A model generated the notes under the pieces. It searched no databases. It was not told the origin of the DNA and saw only the letters and a program-made list of their open reading frames with translations. Source: Gemmata sp. (GTDB taxonomy: Bacteria > Planctomycetota > Planctomycetia > Gemmatales > Gemmataceae). Taken from it: a stretch of DNA of 64,000 nt. Positions 1 to 1,392 of this stretch are shown piece by piece; within the stretch, counting starts at the first letter, position 1, and each line of letters starts with the position of its first letter. The position numbers and the translations under genes were made by a program. The DNA lies in assembly GCA_025055115.1 (NCBI GenBank), contig JANWYJ010000080.1:1-64000 (forward strand), in the 5' to 3' direction.

Positions 1-1392
1 TTCCTGAATAGAACGAATCAACCGGCTCCACAGATCGCCCACCGGGGCATCCGCAGGTTTCTCAGCACGCGGTGTTGGGCCGAAATTCCCATTTGATAAC
101 GACTTAGGTCTTACCTCATCCTTTTTTTTTACGGCACCTGCAGCAGACGCCGCCGGCGCAGCCACCGCGCCATTCCCTTGCACCAGCGTTTGAACAAGCT
201 GCCCAACCGGCAGTAAATCCCCCAAACGGGCCAATCGTACCACGGCCATTTCCAGTAGCACTTGGGTATGCAGACTGCCGCGAAGACGGGCTTTCGTCGC
301 CGTCAGAACCTCCAAACCTGCCAAAATGGCATCCAGAGAAATCCGTTGTACTTGTTCGCGTATTGCGGCCTGTTGCGCGGGGGAAACGGGTAATTGCCGA
401 ATCTCCGGCCCCCCGCAACTGACGAGCATCAACGATCGCCAATAGTCGATTAGCTGATCGAGTAGTTCCCCGGGTTGCAAACCGCGTTCGACCCACTGGG
501 CGATCCGCTCGAGGGCGGTTTTGGGGTCGGCGTGGAGGATGGCTTCGGCCAGTTCGATGACCCGGTCGTCGGTGGCCGTGCCCAGCACCGCGGTCACATG
601 TTCAGCCGTCAGATGCCCTTGGGACGACGCTAGAAGTTGATCCAGAAGGGATTGCGCATCGCGGAGCGAACCGCCGGCGCGGTGGGCGATCTGCCGCAGG
701 GCGTCATCCTCGGCCACCAGGCCCTCATTTTTTACAATACGCTGCAATTGCTCATAGATCTTCGGCGCTCCGATGTGAGCGAAATCGAAACGCTGACAGC
801 GGGAGAGGATCGTGATAGGGATCTTCTGAACTTCGGTGGTGGCCAGAATAAACTTGACATGCTCCGGGGGTTCTTCGAGGGTTTTCAGCAGGGCATTGAA
901 GGCACTGGTTGTCAGCATGTGAACTTCGTCGATGATGTAGATTCGGTAGCGACTGCGGGTGGGTCGAAACCCCACCGCCTGACGGAGATCGCGAATCTCT
1001 TCGACCTTGTTGTTGCTGGCTCCGTCGATTTCGAGAACGTCGACATCATCGCCTGCGGCGATGGCTAGGCAACTGGGGCAGCGATCGCAGGGAGTGGGAG
1101 TCGGTTGTGGGGCGTTTTCACAATTGAGCGCTTTGGCCAGGATGCGGGCCGCACTGGTTTTGCCCACACCCCGCGCCCCGGTGAAGAGATAGGCATGCGC
1201 GATGCGGCCGGCTTGCAGCGCGTTGACCAGTGCTCCGGCGACATGGTCTTGACCGACCAGCTCCGCGAATTGTTGCGGTCGATACCGCCGTGCGACCACG
1301 GTATACGGGGTAGAACCTGGTGCCGGCCCGCGGTTGGTCGGCACGGATTGCCCGGTCGAAGCCTGAGGTGGTGTCGTTTTCCTTTGGGCCAT
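1..1392 (-). CDS. dnaX: DNA polymerase III subunit gamma/tau (3' end outside window)
   Basis: Clamp-loader ATPase of the replisome. The frame starting at ATG 1392 (MAQRKTTPP) stays open for 464 codons to base 1, so the C-terminal tau part lies outside the window. Visible are the GARGVGKTSAARIL Walker A loop, a zinc-binding cluster with Cys residues in CDRCPSC, the DEVHMLT Walker B region, the LLKTLEEPPEH segment and the SRCQRFDF sensor region, all in the order usual for DnaX. At codons 421-424 the frame crosses nine consecutive A residues containing A AAA AAG; a -1 shift there ends at TGA 118-116 after 425 residues, close to the 431 residues of E. coli gamma. The product identity is certain from these motifs; production of two forms is inferred. 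Confidence 0.97.
   Translation of the reverse strand, partial: MAQRKTTPPQASTGQSVPTNRGPAPGSTPYTVVARRYRPQQFAELVGQDHVAGALVNALQAGRIAHAYLFTGARGVGKTSAARILAKALNCENAPQPTPTPCDRCPSCLAIAAGDDVDVLEIDGASNNKVEEIRDLRQAVGFRPTRSRYRIYIIDEVHMLTTSAFNALLKTLEEPPEHVKFILATTEVQKIPITILSRCQRFDFAHIGAPKIYEQLQRIVKNEGLVAEDDALRQIAHRAGGSLRDAQSLLDQLLASSQGHLTAEHVTAVLGTATDDRVIELAEAILHADPKTALERIAQWVERGLQPGELLDQLIDYWRSLMLVSCGGPEIRQLPVSPAQQAAIREQVQRISLDAILAGLEVLTATKARLRGSLHTQVLLEMAVVRLARLGDLLPVGQLVQTLVQGNGAVAAPAASAAGAVKKKDEVRPKSLSNGNFGPTPRAEKPADAPVGDLWSRLIRSIQE
116..139 (-). other. Putative dnaX -1 frameshift / slippage site
   Basis: On the minus strand the dnaX zero frame reads GTA AAA AAA AAG GAT GAG. The heptamer A AAA AAG (127-121) is in exactly the phase used by E. 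coli dnaX, and the -1 frame gives one glycine codon and then TGA at 118-116. An SD-like AGGTG lies at 139-135, 7 nt before the heptamer. The uninterrupted run of nine A also resembles the Thermus dnaX site, where transcriptional slippage is known. I see only a weak 4-bp stem downstream, so transcriptional slippage is as plausible as ribosomal shifting. Confidence 0.7.

Follow-up and report, generated by a model that had tools for sequence, protein, structure and literature searches.

The dnaX locus and its A9 run

The window, i.e., the whole 64-kb stretch of DNA analysed here (contig C35), opens inside a dnaX gene on the minus strand, and its features are collected in Table 1. Once C35 and contig C31 are joined, the frame is open throughout and encodes a tau of 600 aa, with a ybaB-like gene lying 3' of dnaX on C31. 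The T9 at 122-130 of the plus strand is the sense-strand A9 of dnaX, which starts at the third base of Val421 and lies ~70% along the 600-codon gene. In the sense context GTA AAA AAA AAG GAT GAG, the -1 reading past the run is GGA TGA and the +1 reading is ATG AGG TAA. The 425-aa and 426-aa products predicted from these readings would retain domains I–III and lack the C-terminal part, like the gamma subunit of Escherichia coli.

Table 1. Features of the dnaX locus, with positions in the window
Feature	Position	Strand	Remarks
dnaX, first 464 codons	1392..1	minus	TIGR02397, 448.7 bits; truncated by the contig end at base 1
DnaX domains			PF13177; PF22608 (lid); PF12169 (domain III), last residue 403
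A9 run (putatively slippery), codons GTA AAA AAA AAG (Val421-Lys424)	122..130	minus
In-phase heptamer A AAA AAG	121..127	minus
TGA, stop in the -1 frame	116..118	minus	1 codon past the run; putative gamma of 425 aa
TAA, stop in the +1 frame	111..113	minus	2 codons past the run; putative gamma of 426 aa
17 bases shared with the beginning of contig C31, TTCGTTCTATTCAGGAA	1..17	minus	C31 holds the last ~136 tau codons

A preliminary description of this DNA had reported an A9 with an in-phase A AAA AAG in dnaX and had proposed that a -1 shift ends at TGA after one codon, giving a 425-residue gamma. Both statements agree exactly with our reading, with the heptamer at 127..121, and the TAA of the +1 frame (426 aa) had been missed. 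The same description equated the location with that in E. coli, which is correct insofar as the run occupies the analogous linker past domain III and incorrect in distance, as 349 codons separate it from the Walker A motif compared with 383 in E. coli.

Distribution and natural variants of the run

The dnaX genes of 58 relatives and ~100 further Planctomycetota genomes were compared. The class was taken as families f1-f9, and a run was counted when it comprised at least 8 A and lay 320-410 codons past the Walker A motif. Both the sample of the phylum and the loci retrieved for the comparison are biased to high-scoring matches, and the phylum loci L187-L189, L193, L196 and L203 were left out of the counts after failing the ORF/motif filter. 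The preliminary description had named a missing run in related genomes as a refutation, a check that the site passes: an A8-A10 run is found at the linker position in 69 of the 87 class dnaX genes (A9 in 46, A10 in 22 and A8 in one), including all 18 other genomes of the same genus. Outside the class, the run recurs at the equivalent dnaX position in families f41, f51, f56, f57, f60 and f29, and it is present in named Phycisphaerae, Schlesneria and Aporhodopirellula. It is absent from the Bacillus, the Lachnospiraceae and most of the delta-proteobacterial dnaX loci compared. A Verrucomicrobia MAG (L233) and an Ignavibacteria MAG (L249) carry A9 at the equivalent position, with a nearby stop in each off frame.

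The remaining 18 of the 87 class members are without the run, among them the entire sister family f2 (7/7), and gamma, or making gamma by means of the run, is therefore dispensable. The run length within the class is bimodal, being either 9-10 or none, with a single intermediate (L019, A7) and all others at or below A5-A6. On a DnaX tree of 157 rows, the run/no-run label changes 17 times, 11 of them within the class, compared to 53 changes for random labels. These label changes fit an old trait that would have been lost repeatedly, family f2 being among the losses.

Several loci display other arrangements at the gamma boundary. In L055 (genome G027, from the window's family), the zero frame stops 14 codons past an A10, and the C-terminal region of tau is found in the -1 frame, which is open for 162 codons. 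In L194 (G061, from another family), a TAA occurs five codons past an A10, the -1 frame encodes the tau C-terminus, and a ybaB-like gene comes next. These two genes have the two-ORF arrangement described by Antonov et al. 2013, so that tau would need a slip, although a homopolymer error is also possible. If they are not draft homopolymer errors, they would represent single-indel swaps that are tolerable only with an efficient slip. One genus of family f4 (L014, L015, L113, L115, L117, L123, L125 and L127) has two tandem A9/A10 runs in the linker, with TGA in the -1 frame right after the second.

Loci without an A-run also vary in this region. In L181, L204 and L213 (f16), the zero frame ends at gamma length and a tau-like C-terminal stretch is found in the -1 frame; in L177 (f42), which likewise ends at gamma length, the tau-like stretch occupies the +1 frame and has an ATG of its own. 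The tau-like stretch of the f16 and f42 loci may be reached via a separate start or another shift. The DnaX of four f26 loci (L199, L205, L206 and L209) ends ~370-410 residues past Walker A, with a ybaB-like gene next in another frame, and the tau C-terminal region was seen in no frame of these loci.

Off-frame stops and the route to gamma

Stop codons within 10 codons past the run occur in the -1 frame of 96% and in the +1 frame of 88% of the 69 class sites, and 84% have both. After shuffling of the downstream 60 codons, both stops were found in 15%, and the observed value was reached in 0 of 500 trials; at control positions elsewhere in the 69 dnaX genes, the proportion was 7%. Taking one gene per genus (37 genera) gave the same 84%, versus 12% after codon shuffling. 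At the equivalent position of 17 run-less class members, both stops were present in 2%. By these comparisons of sequences, selection acts on the nucleotides in both off frames. The stops in two frames favor transcriptional slippage, because a -1 ribosomal shift would gain nothing from a stop in the +1 frame, whereas slippage would. The run lengths of 9-10 or none point in the same direction, because A6 plus G would be enough for the ribosomal heptamer, and a length threshold is expected from the 9-10 bp RNA-DNA hybrid (PMC5009743).

We therefore favor, at a probability of about 0.75, a programmed slippage site that would let one dnaX gene supply two clamp-loader subunits. The frame change would be mainly transcriptional, with RNA polymerase slipping on A9/A10 and generating an mRNA pool with varying run lengths. 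Transcripts whose run is altered by a multiple of three, zero included, would encode tau, and all other lengths would lead within a few codons to one of the two off-frame stops and thus to gamma. In the window gene, transcripts with one extra A would end at the TGA at 118..116 and yield the 425-aa gamma, and those lacking one A or carrying two extra would end at the TAA at 113..111 and yield the 426-aa form. Such a gamma, comprising domains I–III and having lost the C-terminal third, would be expected to accumulate and to function in the clamp loader.

The best-surviving alternative is a programmed -1 ribosomal frameshift of the E. coli type at A AAA AAG, with uniform A9 in the mRNA. As in E. 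coli, the heptamer is in phase and the -1 frame reaches a TGA after one codon. The tRNA genes of the genome also match E. coli, with one tRNA-Lys (UUU) and no CUU seen. The two-lysine-tRNA argument made for Thermus (PMC5009743) therefore fails here, and ribosomal shifting at AAG could take place; we dropped this argument for Thermus-like slippage and treat the tRNA set as neutral. However, the in-phase A AAA AAG is present in only 11 of the 69 class sites. The base 3' of the run is C in 42, G in 17 and T in 10, so most sites read A AAA AAC or AAT, which are poor shift sites in E. coli (PMC5009743), and five further possible classes occur among the 69 sites beyond the commonest phase/length class. 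E. coli-type shifting also leaves unexplained both the run length of 9-10 and +1 stops as close as the -1 stops.

Accessory signals of ribosomal shifting were compared with E. coli dnaX as the single control. An internal Shine-Dalgarno sequence was sought ~10 nt upstream and not found, at -2.2 kcal/mol here versus -7.2 kcal/mol for E. coli on the same measure. Across the site set, the mean of -2.9 kcal/mol against a same-gene background of -2.2 gave no Shine-Dalgarno signal. The 79-nt downstream region has a folding z of 0.30, a score low in power, as the known hairpin of E. coli itself gives -0.4. Over the site set, the mean MFE was -12.5 versus -14.5 elsewhere in the genes, so the downstream region is less folded, on what is a weak test. 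Taken with the sequence features above, these results make E. coli-type shifting unlikely. The label "E. coli-like" given in the preliminary description hence suits the site poorly, as its run is 9-10 A instead of 6. Its broader suggestion, that planctomycetes make gamma by a frame change, very probably holds, as judged from a site of recoding type that is conserved where gamma and tau part; the E. coli mode attached to it probably does not.

Gamma could also arise from uniform transcripts if ribosomes slid in both directions (-1 and +1, or a mixture) on the poly-A. Ribosomes do slide on A-runs in laboratory work, and sliding would likewise select a long A-run with stops in two frames, but it would not need the sharp threshold at 9-10. 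We know of no case of programmed bidirectional ribosome sliding in dnaX, and we regard this route as improbable.

A lysine-rich linker without recoding, in which the A-run is incidental, would draw on the tolerance of a variable linker for lysines and on the expectation of one A9 per such window by chance. A single A9 within 64 kb is indeed not rare by itself, since at least one is present in 40 of 100 dinucleotide-shuffled versions of the window. The whole genome (4.93 Mb) has 18 separate A/T runs of at least 9, counted with overlapping matches merged, and only a few of them sit in sense inside convincing genes. Two of the genome's loci (L299 and L309) have an A9 in sense within long ORFs, encoding proteins of 361 aa (GTPase-like) and 586 aa, where slippage is possible. 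Against an incidental run, the A-run recurs at one position, and runs of at least 9 A/T are rare elsewhere: outside the linker site, 290 kb of dnaX loci contain 8, all of them second linker runs of the one f4 genus. The protein does not explain the run either, because the encoded peptides differ although the run is retained, with 20 types in all, e.g., AKKN, EKKN, QKKT, VKKK, EKKS, KKK and KKN. Given the residues and the codon usage of each gene, 4.4 runs are expected compared with 69 present, a figure conditional on sites picked for having a run and thus a guide rather than a p-value. The run is not due to chance and is conserved at the nucleotide level with varying residues; together with the enrichment of stops in two frames, this makes an incidental run very improbable. 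A homopolymer sequencing or assembly error, conceivable at the end of a contig in a draft genome, was rejected for the A9, as the frame is open across the run here and in dozens of relatives with independent genomes, several of them single-contig.

Programmed RNA polymerase slippage thus remains our preferred explanation for the window gene. A wider proposition would make transcriptional slippage at an A9/A10 run old and the usual route to gamma in the class and beyond, with selected stops in two frames, several losses, and an efficiency sufficient in some lineages for indel-swapped products (tau by slippage) or a tandem second run; we consider the odds on it to be even. The clade-wide set offers many natural variants, including A8-A10 lengths, phases, 3' bases, losses and swapped frames, which make the determinants of slippage efficiency testable. 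The purpose of gamma likewise becomes testable, by comparing near relatives that have the site with others that do not. For genome annotation, the dnaX entries of these genomes would miss gamma, and what look like homopolymer "frameshifts" in dnaX may be genuine.

Comparison with known dnaX systems

The window gene shares with E. coli dnaX the in-phase A AAA AAG, a TGA that closes the -1 frame after one codon, a gamma that would keep domains I–III, and the ybaB-like gene after dnaX. It differs in having A9 where E. coli has A6, and in being without an internal Shine-Dalgarno sequence or a comparable hairpin, the folding test being weak. In addition, the G after the run is not conserved in relatives, and the +1 stop follows after 2 codons, compared with 11 in E. 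coli.

In two-ORF dnaX genes, a frame change is needed for tau (Antonov et al. 2013, PMC3711429; Chlorobium, PMC5009743). The poly-A run at the gamma boundary is common to these genes and to ours, whereas the window gene has tau in frame and would make gamma by the shift.

Programmed RNA polymerase slippage in a housekeeping gene is experimentally well documented for Thermus dnaX. According to PMC1088944 and PMC5009743, which describe Larsen et al. 2000, the Thermus thermophilus gene has an A9 with stops in both non-zero frames; in-frame run lengths yield tau, and lengths other than 9 + 3n yield gamma. No earlier report of dnaX slippage in planctomycetes was found in the openly readable papers searched; one of them, PMC3711429, names both planctomycetes and transcriptional slippage. 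The site described here is probably a dnaX slippage site of the known Thermus kind found across a phylum for which these papers gave no earlier report, as its sequence and those of its relatives suggest. There are differences from Thermus: the run lies ~70% along the gene here and at seven-eighths in Thermus (PMC1088944); A10 replaces A9 in a third of the relatives; one tRNA-Lys is present; and slippage here is predicted. The two genes are alike in that each is a single-ORF dnaX with an A9 towards its end and a stop nearby in the -1 as well as the +1 frame, and the likeness to the Thermus A9 that the preliminary description had pointed out is, in run length and in the stops of both off frames, a better match than that to E. 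coli.
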